From: an uncultured Subdoligranulum sp. | GTDB taxonomy: Bacteria; Bacillota; Clostridia; Oscillospirales; Ruminococcaceae | Reading direction: 5' to 3' | Assembly (NCBI RefSeq): GCF_963931595.1 | Contig: NZ_OZ007030.1 | Span: 1,356,481 to 1,420,480 of the forward strand | DNA: 64,000 nt | Shown here: positions 46,657-61,123 of the stretch, piece after piece | Numbering within the stretch: position 1 is the stretch's first letter | How the letters are laid out: each line of letters starts with the position of its first letter | Program-made: the position numbers and the translations under genes | Notes under the pieces: model-generated | What the model saw: the letters and a program-made list of their open reading frames with translations, nothing else | Database searches by the model: none | Told to the model about the DNA's origin: nothing

Positions 46657-47401
46657 TCCATACAGCGTATTGGGCATCGCCCCCGGTGCCGACGATGAGA
46701 CCATCAAAAAAGCCTACCGCCAGAAATGCAAGCAGTATCATCCCGACCTGCACCCCGATGATCCTTCGGCCGAGGAAAAATTCAAGGAAGTGCAGGCCGC
46801 CTACAGCGAGATCATGCGCCGCAAACAAAGCGGCGGATCCACCGGGTACCAGGGTTACCAGCAGCAGAGTTCCGGCAATCCCTACGGTTACCGCCAGAGC
46901 GGTTACGGCACCGGGTATGAGGAAGATCCCTTCGGCGGTTTTGGGTTCGGGCCTTTCGGATTCGGATTTTACGGTACAACCGGCGGCAGCCGCCAGACCT
47001 ACACCACCGGCCAGGAGAGCCCCGAACTCCGCGCCGCAGCCAACTATATCCGCAACGGATTCTATACCGAGGCGATGAATACTCTGAACGGCATCTCCTC
47101 CAACGAGCGCACTGCCCAATGGCATTACTATTGCGCCCTGGCCAACCAGGGGCTTGGCAACAACATCCGCGCCCGGGAGGAAGCCCGCACGGCGGTGTCA
47201 ATGGAGCCCAACAACTACGCCTACCAGAATCTGCTGGACCAGCTGCAAAGTCCCGGGCAGTCCTACACCAGCTATCAGCAACCCTATGCCCAGCCCAGCG
47301 GCAACCCCGGCCGGTTCTGCCTGTCGTTCTGGATGTATCTGGTGGTGTGCAATATCTGCAGCTGGTGCTGCTGCGGCCGTGGCGGCGTATTCTGCTGCTG
47401 A
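46649..47401 (+). CDS. DnaJ-domain protein with C-terminal membrane segment
   Basis: 250 residues. A J domain is at 1-65, with HPD at 31-33. A Gly/Tyr/Gln-rich linker follows (YGYRQSGYG and repeats), then a tetratricopeptide-like helical region (about 130-200), and a C-terminal hydrophobic, cysteine-rich tail (WMYLVVCNICSWCCC). It is a specialised J-protein probably recruiting DnaK to a membrane site, not the general DnaJ. The tail may bind metal. Confidence 0.85.
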   Translation: MTDPYSVLGIAPGADDETIKKAYRQKCKQYHPDLHPDDPSAEEKFKEVQAAYSEIMRRKQSGGSTGYQGYQQQSSGNPYGYRQSGYGTGYEEDPFGGFGFGPFGFGFYGTTGGSRQTYTTGQESPELRAAANYIRNGFYTEAMNTLNGISSNERTAQWHYYCALANQGLGNNIRAREEARTAVSMEPNNYAYQNLLDQLQSPGQSYTSYQQPYAQPSGNPGRFCLSFWMYLVVCNICSWCCCGRGGVFCC

Positions 47402-47475
47402 TCCGAATTGTCTCTTTTCAGGACGGTGCCGCCATGCGGCCCGCCTTTTCTGTTTGTATCTGTTTCCCGATGAAG

Positions 47476-57778: not shown

Positions 57779-58508
57779 ATTCATCTTTTCGAAACGCCAG
57801 GAAGGACCTGCATTCCATGAATCACTTTTTTCTGGGAATATGACAAAACAATGCCAGCATCTTCCCTCCTGTTCCAAAATGGCAGTCATGACCCCCGGCT
57901 AAGCCGGGGCCTTGTGTAAGCCCTAGAAGGGCATCGTACCGGCAAGCCTCTCAAAAAGCATTGAAAAATCTGCCACTCGCATCACTTGCCCTACAGCCCG
58001 TAAGCGGACGCTGTTTATCCAAAATCAACTTTCTTGACAACAGTAAAGTTGTTGCTCTTTTCTCGCTTCACTCGATTCTTGAAGCCGAAGCTTTTTACTC
58101 TCCCCACAGAGTTGGGGTTCTCATTTTGCCAAAGCATACAAGAGGATTCTCCAAAGCCGGAAAACCCATGATTGGATTTTCCAGTTCTGGAGAACCCAAC
58201 GCAACTGAATATGGGAGATTAGTAAGTACCGAAATAAGCAAAACAGCTACTGGCTGAAAAGGAAGATGTGAGTGCCTATTTTGGACTTCCGGTTTGTCAG
58301 TGTTTTCTCTGCAGAGGGCGCTCTCCTTTTCAGCTGTTAACAGAGTGAGGTAAAAAATTGGCAAGCACGGCATCATGCTGGCATACACCGGCAAAATGCC
58401 ACTTGTCAGGGGAATCTTCCCCTGAAGCCCTTCAGCTATTCCATTAAGCGGCGGAAAAAATATGTAATGTACACTTATAGAAAAGGGGTTAAGCTCCGGA
58501 GCCTGTTG
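57779..58508. other. Gene-poor stretch with inverted repeats
   Basis: I find no convincing gene in this stretch. It begins with small stems (CCCGGCTAAGCCGGG at about 57894 and GCCCTAGAAGGGC near 57918) that recall the subterminal hairpins of IS200/IS605-like elements, but no transposase remains. It also holds an imperfect palindrome at 58144-58197. Frames of 98 (plus) and 157 (minus) codons exist but lack ribosome sites and normal composition. Confidence 0.5.
58144..58197. repeat. Imperfect 54-bp palindrome
   Basis: The two halves (outer arms GGATTCTCCA and TGGAGAACCC, inner GGAAAA and TTTTCC) pair over about 20 of 24 positions. It could be a REP-like or miniature mobile element. Confidence 0.6.
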
Positions 58509-58538
58509 TTGACACAAAAGTCGGGGAAATGATATACT
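58509..58538 (+). promoter_or_regulatory. Promoter of the MFS attenuator unit
   Basis: TTGACA (58509-58514), 18-base spacer, TATACT (58533-58538). It drives the leader peptide and MFS gene. Confidence 0.8.
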
Positions 58539-58555
58539 GACACAGTTCAAAAAGA

Positions 58556-58743
58556 AAGGAGGGCGCACAAATGGCTTGGAGATTTTCTAAGATCCAACTG
58601 AAAAAAGGCAATGTTTTGGCCTTTCAGGGGGATAGTGCGCCCTTTTGGAAGGTCAAGATGGCACGTTGATGTGCTTTTGGACGTGAAAAGCTGTGCACTA
58701 TCTCCTTTTACTTGCAGACACCTGTGAGAAAAGGAGATTTTTT
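58556..58743 (+). promoter_or_regulatory. Leader-peptide attenuator of the MFS gene
   Basis: Four RNA segments can pair in exclusive ways. A (58561-58568, GGGCGCAC) overlaps the leader ribosome site and pairs with B (58635-58642, GTGCGCCC, then TTTT). B's GATAGTGC (58631-58638) pairs alternatively with C (58695-58702, GCACTATC). C's TATCTCCTTTT (58699-58709) pairs with D (58729-58738, AAAAGGAGAT), followed by six T: an intrinsic terminator that also hides the MFS ribosome site. A:B allows C:D (off); a ribosome held on the leader favours B:C and frees D (on). Confidence 0.78.
58571..58669 (+). CDS. Leader peptide of the MFS gene (32 residues)
   Basis: ATG preceded by AAAGGAGGGCGCACAA; begins MAWRFSKIQLKKGNVL and ends KMAR. 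It has no domain; its translation is likely the sensor step that decides which hairpins form. Ribosome-targeting drugs that stall it would switch on the downstream MFS gene. Confidence 0.75.
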   Translation: MAWRFSKIQLKKGNVLAFQGDSAPFWKVKMAR

Positions 58744-59832
58744 ATGTTTACTATTAAACGGCAGATTTGCCTCATCTACTCCATAACGGCACTGAGAAGC
58801 CTCCAGTTTGCAGGCGCCTGCTGGGCAGCGCTACTGGCAGCGAGGGGCTTTTCCCTGACCCAGATCGGATTGGCAGAGGCGGTCTTTCACCTCACCAGCC
58901 TTTTATTTGAAGTTCCATCCGGCGTGATTGCCGACGTATTTGGACGTAAACGCTGTATGATCGCCAGCCAATGTATGTCCGCAATGGCCTCCGTTGCCAT
59001 GATGCTTTCTGGCTCTATAGGGGGTGTCTGTATAGCGATGGCACTCAGTGCGTTGGGTTACAATTTTGCTTCCGGGGCCCGAGAAGCACTTGTCTATGAG
59101 AGCCTCAAACAATGCGGTCAGCAAAGTGCCTATGAACGGTTTGCCGTCAATGACACAACTATATGGAGAATCGGAACGGCATTGTCCACGCTGTGCACTG
59201 GAGCCGCACTGTGGATCGGTCCGCGTGCCGCCTACGGCGTGGATTTGACCCTGGCATTGTTGGGGTTGTGGCCAGCCATGCGGCTACAGGAATCTCAAAA
59301 CAGCGAGGGCGCTGACAGCGATATAATGCAGCGCATCTGTGCTGCCGTAAAGGAAAGCGTTGGGTTTGTTGTCCATAGCCCAAAGGTCCTGCAGCTGATG
59401 TTAGGCAACGCTTTGGTAGGATCTGTGGCGACTATGCTGCTCTATCTGCTCCAGGCGCGGCTGCCGGTTATTGGGGGTCCTGACGGCTGGTTGGGCCCGG
59501 TGTTGTTTCTGCTGGGACTGAGCGGCACACTGGGGCTGCAAATTGCCCGCCTTACAGGTCGGCTGCGGTACCGTTTGGTTGTGGTGCTGTGTGGTACCGG
59601 CGTTCTCACAGGAACGCTTCTGGCCGCCACATCTTGGCTCCCTGCGGTGCTGGCTGGTGGATTTCTGGCAGGGACACTGGATGATTTGATGGACGTGTGC
59701 AGCGATGTTGTACTGAACGAAATGGTCCCCTCCTCTCGAAGGGCAACGCTGGTTTCTGTTTCGTCCCTTGTTTTTTCTTTTGCAATGCTGGCTGTCGCTC
59801 CGCTGTTGGGAGCACTTTTCAGCATGACTTGA
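58744..59832 (+). CDS. MFS transporter, drug-efflux type
   Basis: 362 residues from the ATG at 58744, with AAAAGGAG seven bases before. Eleven to twelve membrane helices are likely; the conserved loop 2-3 motif appears as PSGVIADVFGRKRCM near residue 60. The protein resembles small MFS exporters of drugs. Expression is controlled by the attenuator. Its sequence context (isolated, leader-regulated, between repeats and recombinase debris) suggests transfer. The substrate cannot be read from the sequence. Confidence 0.85.
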   Translation: MFTIKRQICLIYSITALRSLQFAGACWAALLAARGFSLTQIGLAEAVFHLTSLLFEVPSGVIADVFGRKRCMIASQCMSAMASVAMMLSGSIGGVCIAMALSALGYNFASGAREALVYESLKQCGQQSAYERFAVNDTTIWRIGTALSTLCTGAALWIGPRAAYGVDLTLALLGLWPAMRLQESQNSEGADSDIMQRICAAVKESVGFVVHSPKVLQLMLGNALVGSVATMLLYLLQARLPVIGGPDGWLGPVLFLLGLSGTLGLQIARLTGRLRYRLVVVLCGTGVLTGTLLAATSWLPAVLAGGFLAGTLDDLMDVCSDVVLNEMVPSSRRATLVSVSSLVFSFAMLAVAPLLGALFSMT

Positions 59833-59863
59833 CGTGATAATACATCTGCTGCAAATCGAATTA

Positions 59864-59927
59864 TTACATCAAAACAGCGAGATAGTCCCTCCTTAAGGGA
59901 GGCGTCTGTCTCGCTGTTTTGATGTAA
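59864..59927. terminator. Long inverted repeat after the MFS gene
   Basis: TTACATCAAAACAGCGAGA and its exact complement, separated by a centre with a second small stem TCCCT-n5-AGGGA. The 19-bp arms give a very stable hairpin. The A-rich 5' and T-rich 3' arms would act as a terminator in both directions; it may also mark the end of a transferred segment. Confidence 0.7.
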
Positions 59928-59950
59928 AAGCAGATTGAAAACTGATGTGT

Positions 59951-60238
59951 TTATCTATTTTCTTTATTGGAAGTGTCTTTCTGTAAAACTCGCCATTGCT
60001 TCTGAGCTTTATTTTTTCCGCAACCATCGCAGGAATATGGCCACTGGAGTTTCCACTCGGTACATTCTTCCAGGGTGATCGTTTTCTCTCGCAATTCTCT
60101 TTTGCGTATTTTCCATTCCTTCAGGTAATCATCCATGAATGTGTTTTGAAACCATAACATGGTGGGATCATGCAACAGCCAGTTATCGTTATCACTGTAT
60201 TCGATTTTGAATTCATGAATGGAGTTATAATGATCCAT
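59951..60238 (-). CDS. Hypothetical protein
   Basis: 95 residues from an ATG at 60238 (the frame is open to 60319 but overlaps the recombinase remnant). It has several Trp residues and CDGCGKNK near the C-terminus. No good ribosome site is seen. It may be a fragment of a longer gene cut when the recombinase element arrived or decayed. Confidence 0.35.
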   Translation of the reverse strand: MDHYNSIHEFKIEYSDNDNWLLHDPTMLWFQNTFMDDYLKEWKIRKRELREKTITLEECTEWKLQWPYSCDGCGKNKAQKQWRVLQKDTSNKENR

Positions 60239-60958
60239 CTGTCGCAGAACTATGGGAGTACTTTCTCCTCTATCTGGTAAAAGAAAAGCGGGTGGGAACC
60301 AGCACCGTTGATCAGGCACGGAAATTTGGCCGCACTTACATACTGCCTGTATGCGGGAACTTACGAATTTCTCGCTTGAATGAGGGTCACCTGCAAAGAG
60401 TGCTCAATCTTTCCGCGCAGAAAGGTTGTCTGCGACAAGATACGCACCGTCCTTCGAAAGGGCCGCTCAGCCTGAAATCCCTGCGCGGATTACGCAACAT
60501 AGAACAGCAATTTGTAAAATGGTGCCGTATCAATGGTTATACCGCCCTGGCACTGGAAGTCGGAGAGACAACCAGCGGGAAAAAAACAGAACGCCGGGCG
60601 AACCTTTGGGCTGAATTCGTTTGCCCGCCGGATTGTTGAGCAACAGCTGGAGCTACTTCACGCCATCGGGATGCCTACAGCCCCGGAAAGCCCTTTGTTT
60701 CCAGTCATAAACCAACAGAGCCGGTATCAATGAAAGTCTTATGCGCACTCTAATGGCATCACAGCCATCAGCTGCTATGAAATGCGCCACACCTTTATCC
60801 CTTTGGCGCAGAACCTGCCGGAAGGAGATCTATGAAGATTGTGTGGTCAATCTGCCAGCATGGATACAGGGGGTGTGTATGCGCATAAACTATGCGATGA
60901 CGATCCCCGCATTGCCGGAGAGGTGGACCAAATTTTAGGGAGGTACCTTGATAATTGA
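60213..60958 (+). pseudogene. Decayed tyrosine recombinase/integrase
   Basis: A SAM-like core-binding domain is readable from about 60213 to 60550 (LVKEKRVGTSTVDQARKFGR, then QFVKWCRINGY). The catalytic part appears later in another frame (CYEMRHTF at about 60776-60800) and, after a stop and shift, CGQSASMDTGGVYAHKL, with the expected catalytic Tyr. At least two frame changes and a stop disable it. It lies 80 bases from tRNA-Tyr, a common integration target, so it is likely the relic of an element. Confidence 0.85.
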
Positions 60959-61004: not shown

Positions 61005-61038
61005 GCCTCGTAGAATATCGATTCTACGAGGTCTTTTT
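61005..61038 (-). terminator. Terminator of tRNA-Tyr
   Basis: CCTCGTAGAAT / ATTCTACGAGG stem (11 bp, loop of 4), followed on the minus strand by a run of T. It immediately follows the tRNA 3' end. Confidence 0.92.
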
Positions 61039-61123
61039 TGGTGGGAGCTGGTGGATTCGAACCACCGAAGCATTAAGCAGCAGATTTACAGTCTGTCCCC
61101 ATTGGCCACTCGGGAAAGCTCCC
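61039..61123 (-). tRNA. tRNA-Tyr (GTA)
   Basis: 85 bases with an encoded CCA. Acceptor GGGAGCU/AGCUCCC, anticodon GTA in the loop CTGTAAA, a long variable arm and the T arm GGTGGTTCGAATCCACC. Confidence 0.95.

Follow-up and report, generated by a model that had tools for sequence, protein, structure and literature searches.

A putative leader-peptide attenuator family upstream of MFS exporter-like genes in gut Clostridia

The best explanation for the leader region between positions 58509 and 58743 of the window (the whole 64,000-nucleotide stretch of DNA analysed here, from an uncultured Subdoligranulum sp., a Gemmiger-like gut bacterium) is likely to be ribosome-mediated attenuation of the MFS exporter gene that follows it, a reading in which we place considerable confidence. 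Its basis lies in sequence and comparison, namely a leader ORF, conservation of that ORF at the level of amino acids, a constant spacing between the ORF and a downstream RNA segment (B), alternative RNA pairings, and a hairpin (C:D) abutting the MFS gene; what we infer of the mechanism is the stall and where it occurs, the ligand, and which way the response runs. The logic of attenuation is known and the leader family appears to be new: the family, its motif and its link with a clade of MFS genes were found in none of Rfam, Pfam, NCBIfam or the open-access papers searched. To our knowledge, few arrest-peptide families have been described, nearly all of them from model organisms or mobile resistance genes; the present family has a clear motif and a fixed ribosome-to-RNA geometry, and sits on the chromosomes of common gut Clostridia.

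The leader locus and its alternative pairings

The leader is headed by a sigma-70-type promoter (58509 to 58538, on the plus strand, as are all features of the leader) comprising TTGACA, an 18-nucleotide spacer and TATACT, with a TG ahead of the -10 element; it matches 11 of 12 consensus positions, and a consensus scan found this one promoter where 0.2 were expected. It is followed by a leader ORF of 32 codons (MAWRFSKIQLKKGNVLAFQGDSAPFWKVKMAR; 58571 to 58669), identified from the ORF list and from homologues and preceded by AAAGGAGGGCGCAC, a strong ribosome site (GGAGG). A good promoter, a 32-codon ORF and a strong ribosome site had been named in the first-pass annotation, and the consensus scan and ORF list bear them out, coordinates included. 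Four segments of this leader are able to pair in mutually exclusive ways. Segment A (AGGAGGGCGCAC; 58557 to 58568), which is the Shine-Dalgarno region of the leader, pairs with positions 58635 to 58646 of segment B (GGGGATAGTGCGCCCTTTT; 58628 to 58646), as indicated by folding, covariation and a swap test; positions 58628 to 58640 of B may pair with segment C (GTGCACTATCTCC; 58693 to 58705), and C, from 58700 onward, may pair with segment D (58722 to 58738). D forms the 3' arm of the C:D hairpin (58700 to 58738), which together with its T run (to 58743) is terminator-like, and which masks the MFS Shine-Dalgarno sequence AAAGGAG (58730 to 58736), located inside D by sequence and fold. The MFS transporter gene itself (58744 to 59832; 362 amino acids; Pfam MFS_1) starts at 58744 and not at the mechanically called GTG at 58693. 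The putative stall site at codons 12 to 14 (K-G-N; 58604 to 58612) is placed by the conservation of K/N12 and G13, and by the fixed distance to B. The window's own genome carries a single leader of this family.

The whole leader folds at -74.4 kcal/mol, against -52.9 kcal/mol for shuffled sequences (z -5.3), and none of 200 shuffles was equally stable. Folded separately, the stretches A-B, B-C and C-D give -39.3 kcal/mol (z -4.6), -35.7 kcal/mol (z -4.0) and -20.4 kcal/mol (z -8.1); the four complementary segments proposed earlier are upheld by these folds, which beat shuffled sequences, and by the covariation of A:B and B:C in homologues. When segment B was blocked in the computed fold, the full C:D hairpin formed, and when both A and the stall site were blocked, B:C formed together with a shortened C:D. 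With one ribosome blocking codon 14, A and B still paired around it, so that a second ribosome, or steric hindrance, must keep A away. In the window, B:C removes the base of C:D and leaves a 13-pair upper hairpin (-13.5 of the -20.4 kcal/mol) set back from the T run, and the pairing of the MFS Shine-Dalgarno sequence drops partially, from 0.90 to 0.67; in one homologue (L072), B:C removes more of C:D than it does in the window. Given this residual hairpin, and the persistence of A:B around a lone ribosome, the ON state is plausible rather than proven.

The double role that had been ascribed to C:D, as intrinsic terminator and as cover for the MFS ribosome site, accords with the T run and with the presence of AAAGGAG in the 3' arm; a consensus terminator scan left the hairpin unflagged, and its stem contains a bulge. 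The first-pass annotation had further assigned the locus to the logic of translation attenuation. Masking of the MFS Shine-Dalgarno sequence by C:D is consistent with that assignment, whereas the terminator form of the same hairpin suggests that the window switch is at least equally one of transcription attenuation.

Distribution and conservation of the leader family

A protein search with the 32-residue leader as query showed the peptide to recur, at falling identity, in other genera of its own family, and a small upstream ORF of the leader kind stands before 20 of 20 MFS homologues with E < 1e-20, although it is diverged in two (L044, L045). A covariance model, built from 18 leaders and later from 44, recovered some 46 homologues, distributed over at least four Clostridia families (the window's own, f14, f52 and f67); at E 1e-8 or better, leader homologues lie ahead of related MFS genes in numerous genera of the first of these families as well as in the other three. 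A leader of this family is present in 14 of the 35 genomes of the genus. A Gemmiger MAG (L046), whose leader is identical, is the closest relative with a name, and was the sole relative returned by the scan of genome contigs. Across a 348-genome sample of the whole phylum, the covariance model returned one weak chance match outside those families; scans of IMG/VR, by DNA pattern and by MFS alignment, gave no match, and plasmids gave no leader match, the MFS relatives there being distant (<60% identity). Weak covariance-model matches near E 1e-3 (L078-L081, L088-L095, L101) were rejected as chance, as the leader pattern or the MFS gene was absent.

All strong model matches precede a related MFS gene, with one exception (L083). 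In that locus, which belongs to family f52, positions 1501 to 1700 contain an intact leader, segment B and a terminator-like hairpin with no MFS gene behind them, and we propose that it represents an orphan attenuator or a recent deletion. Two faecal records deposited as 'Bacteriophage sp.' (L097 and L098; MT838580 and MT837962) contain the leader together with the beginning of the MFS gene, and are probably bacterial contigs. The two diverged leaders noted above (MLFTWYIPMLSSWKNAFNAAADGITAPFFSL; L044:1262-1354 and L045:1278-1370) share with the rest their W-to-K spacing and a SAPFF-like segment; they come from another family of the order, with 24% identity in the MFS protein and weak leader model scores (E 0.2-0.7).

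The MFS protein matches Pfam MFS_1 at E 5.8e-19 (68.6 bits, cut-off 33.4). Among the curated NCBIfam profiles it reaches 41 of 750 bits for TetA(P) and 21.9 of 800 for Tet(40), both far below the cut-offs; the MefA-type antiporter and HP1165 profiles match as weakly as TetA(P), and relatives with solved structures are remote. The best named profiles would thus describe only a 'drug-efflux-like MFS' protein, and the previous designation as an uncharacterised MFS exporter gene of a gut Firmicute stands. Relatives found with the TetA(P) profile in other Clostridia (L102-L105) have no leader of this kind. In another genome of the same genus (G004), a block comprising leader and MFS gene (94% identical; window 58159-60133; L002/L027) occurs in a different genomic context, where the MFS gene is broken after 167 amino acids and the flanks match window positions 46935-47404 and 61009-61069; the block is perhaps mobile or has undergone rearrangement. 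Shortly past the MFS gene, the window contains an ORF (60292-60639) that is weakly similar to the N-terminal portion of phage integrases and lies near a tRNA gene (61042-61123, minus strand). The Gemmiger MAG is without the window stretch 60490-60681.

The alternative pairings are widely shared among homologues. A:B was paired in 81.8% of cells across 44 homologues, with 25 cells of two-sided change against 11.3 in shuffles, and scored clearly above all slid registers. B:C was paired in 93.5% of cells across 19 distinct sequences of the window's type, with compensatory changes at 7 of the 13 pairs; these amounted to 19 cells, where shuffles gave 5.0. The score was 0.459, compared with a maximum of 0.176 in slid registers. 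These B:C figures somewhat favour the structure because the register of C was picked by best match. A register-free swap test gave -19.6 kcal/mol for B with its own downstream region (C) against -16.2 kcal/mol with that of others, and the corresponding test for A:B gave -14.1 against -12.7 kcal/mol, with none of 5000 permutations as good in either case; as the homologues share descent, these permutation counts, like the covariation counts, overstate independence. Judged by these comparisons, the alternative pairings exceed chance and are kept in evolution. The C:D hairpin has z < -2 in 32 of 44 homologues, includes the MFS Shine-Dalgarno sequence in its 3' arm in 36, and is followed by a run of at least five T in 26. 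In a sister clade of the same genus (L033 and others), C:D is without a T run and is accompanied by a separate terminator-like hairpin, so that the switch there would act on translation, at the ribosome site, alone.

The family also offers natural variants, with long or short ORFs, with or without A:B, and with a terminator or a mask over the ribosome site. Several leaders (L072-L076, L099) have no A:B, and possess B:C and C:D only; no clear B:C was found in L029, L058 or L061. Absence of A:B is confined to long-ORF leaders (7 of 31, against 0 of 13 short-ORF leaders) which fall in two clades, and is only suggestive of ribosome cover substituting for A:B in long-ORF leaders. A prediction is that, when translation is lacking, leaders devoid of A:B would be ON and those with A:B would be held OFF.

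The peptide itself follows the pattern M-x-W-x4-[ILV]-x3-[K/N]-G, with variable synonymous codons. In 43 aligned leaders, Trp3 and Gly13 are invariant, position 12 is occupied by Lys in 35 leaders and by Asn in 8, and position 8 by Leu, Val or Ile; overall, W3, and K/N12 with G13, occur in 43 of 44. The three bases of codon 8 have entropies of 1.92, 0 and 1.91 bits, the second being fixed as T and the first and third near random, and codon 13 always encodes Gly through three codons (GGC, GGT, GGA) with a free third base. As synonymous bases vary at these two codons while the residue is kept, selection appears to act there on amino acids and not on RNA. The Lys12 codon is always AAA, which leaves some room for a nucleotide-level role of AAA-GG at codons 12-13. 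Within segment B, codon 22 (Ser22) is invariably AGT or GGT, and codon 25 (F25) ends without exception in TT, fixed third positions that denote constraint on the RNA; B is also kept as RNA in leaders whose ORF stops at codon 16, before B. These patterns together suggest that codons 3-13 are conserved as peptide, and B as RNA. The distance from ATG to B is 64 nt in 45 of 46 leaders (18 of 18 in the first set), including those with ORFs ending before B. When codon 14 occupies the P site, the front edge of the ribosome should lie at about +55 to +57, and in leaders of the window's type segment B spans +58 onward from the leader start; this fixed distance, with the edge of the footprint at B, fits a stall near codons 13-14, which we infer as its place. 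A peptide under selection at the amino acid level, and pairings that covary, across some 44 homologues, sustain the original proposal of a leader-peptide attenuator with exclusive pairings, which, as had been stated beforehand, an absence of conserved pairing in a covariation analysis would have refuted.

A proposed switch and what it may sense

Under the mechanism that we propose, ribosomes would initiate on the leader ORF at its strong site. In the OFF state, a reading ribosome would cover B, or A would bind B when the leader is unread, and C would be free for D, giving the terminator-like hairpin that would also mask the MFS ribosome site. A ligand-bound ribosome would stall with codons 13-14 in the decoding centre and its front edge just before B, whereas a stall two or three codons further on would cover B. 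Segment A would meanwhile be held by a following or initiating ribosome, the leader site being strong, or its pairing would be barred by sterics. In the ON state, B would pair with C, C:D would lose its base, RNA polymerase would read through, and the MFS gene would be expressed. W3, the hydrophobic residue 8, K/N12 and G13 would act in the exit tunnel as an arrest motif of the nascent chain, by which the ligand is sensed.

That the same switch and peptide pattern recur before related transporter genes suggests that the ribosome senses a compound and turns on a pump, and the fixed residues point to sensing by the nascent chain. The inducer may be a ribosome-targeting antibiotic, which we hold more likely, or a gut compound. 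As a tentative extension, for which we would claim appreciably less than even chances, the leader would be the founding example of a family of ligand-sensing arrest peptides not described before (M-x-W-x4-[ILV]-x3-[K/N]-G), present throughout gut Clostridia and linked to a single clade of MFS exporters; rather than a clinical antibiotic, it would respond to a natural gut compound of microbial, host or dietary origin that is removed by the pump. Sensing of a general slowing of translation has been suggested for some tetracycline genes, and the leader could likewise respond to slow ribosomes, whether slowed by any drug or by starvation, which would free B more often, with no specific ligand. The pairings A:B, B:C and C:D alone could suffice for such a response, and in leaders without A:B the absence of reading ribosomes would by itself favour B:C; we nonetheless regard it as unlikely, because general slowing needs no retention of W3, [ILV]8, K/N12 and G13 alongside varying synonymous positions. 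Amino acid attenuation through charged tRNA, tryptophan above all, with a ribosome waiting at codon 3 and covering A, would account for the presence of W3 in 43 of 44 leaders and for the overlap of a ribosome there with the leader ribosome site, but appears very improbable given that there is a single Trp codon and no amino acid has a run of its codons, that codons 8, 12 and 13 are equally fixed, as far as nine residues on, and that the downstream gene is MFS_1 exporter-like and does not encode a biosynthetic enzyme. Least credible of all is a ligand-binding riboswitch or protein-binding element with an incidental small ORF, which would fit a stable, conserved RNA with alternative folds, but for which Rfam offers no family above chance (at the gathering threshold tRNAs alone matched in the window, with no leader RNA family, and at a permissive threshold the best sub-threshold leader matches had E 2.4 or worse), while among single-stranded columns conservation is highest at ATG, TGG and codons 12-13, all of them read as codons, along with the hydrophobic codon 8, and no conserved aptamer-like core lies outside A, B, C and D.

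If ribosome-mediated attenuation is the true mechanism, then the leader would be a directly testable sensor of some compound, and would probably confer an inducible efflux trait on commensals that is absent from resistance databases. Its variants would, further, serve as natural mutants for dissecting the effect of a stalled ribosome on RNA structure.

Comparison with known attenuators

Attenuation of resistance genes by leader peptides is well known (reviewed in PMC5418344; for mef(E), PMC4335068; for MsrD, PMC10314930). The resistance genes tet(M), tet(O) and tet(S) resemble the present system in their gut and Firmicute setting, and in having both a leader peptide and a hairpin of terminator-like form. 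On direct comparison, the tet(M) leader (MLCMPMVMHKNPSDKSIYHWDFYALLGF) and the upstream regions of tet(O) and tet(S) share no leader motif with it, the covariance model (R2) found no match in the tet(M), tet(O) and tet(S) loci, and the upstream regions of tet(M), tet(O), tet(O/W/32/O) and tet(S) were rejected as members of the same class; four leaders searched against Pfam gave no match. The upstream regions of tet(M), tet(O) and tet(S) (L047:454-477, L048, L049, L050) share a mini-ORF of their own (ATGCGGCAAGGTATTCTTAAATAA; MRQGILK), which is nearly identical in sequence among them, lies before the annotated tet(M) leader and may be a second leader peptide.

TnaC and SpeFL are arrest peptides that detect a small molecule through residues lying deep in the tunnel (compared in PMC10314930). 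Some stop codons directly follow the site of arrest, a layout that recurs at the putative stall site in 15-codon members of the present family; the downstream genes differ, and no sequence relation was seen. The spacing from Trp to the stall in TnaC also differs from the W3-to-G13 spacing of the present leader. In translation attenuators of the ermC and cat type (PMC5418344), likewise, a ribosome on the leader controls a hairpin masking the ribosome site of the resistance gene, a likeness that extends to sister-clade members such as L033, where the mask hairpin has no T run. The peptides are unrelated, and the mask hairpin of the window, unlike theirs, also ends in a T run and is terminator-like.

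The leaders of the macrolide transcription attenuators mef(E)/mel (mefA/msrD) and erm(K)/erm(D) encode MTASMRLR or MTHSMRLR and carry the +x+ motif of macrolide arrest, Arg/Lys-x-Arg/Lys at the stall site (PMC4335068, PMC10314930). The present leader is longer, follows M-x-W-x4-[ILV]-x3-[K/N]-G and has no +x+ at the putative stall site, where residues 12-14 are K/N, G and then mostly N or another uncharged residue. Being neither of the macrolide (+x+), nor the tet(M), nor the trp type, the peptide pattern thus names no class of inducer. In architecture, the present system resembles mef(E)/mel and erm(K)/erm(D): all place a short leader peptide and alternative hairpins before an efflux or resistance gene, all include a hairpin with the form of an intrinsic terminator, which in the known systems is relieved by the stalled ribosome, and mef(E), like the putative exporter gene described here, encodes an MFS protein, in its case a pump.
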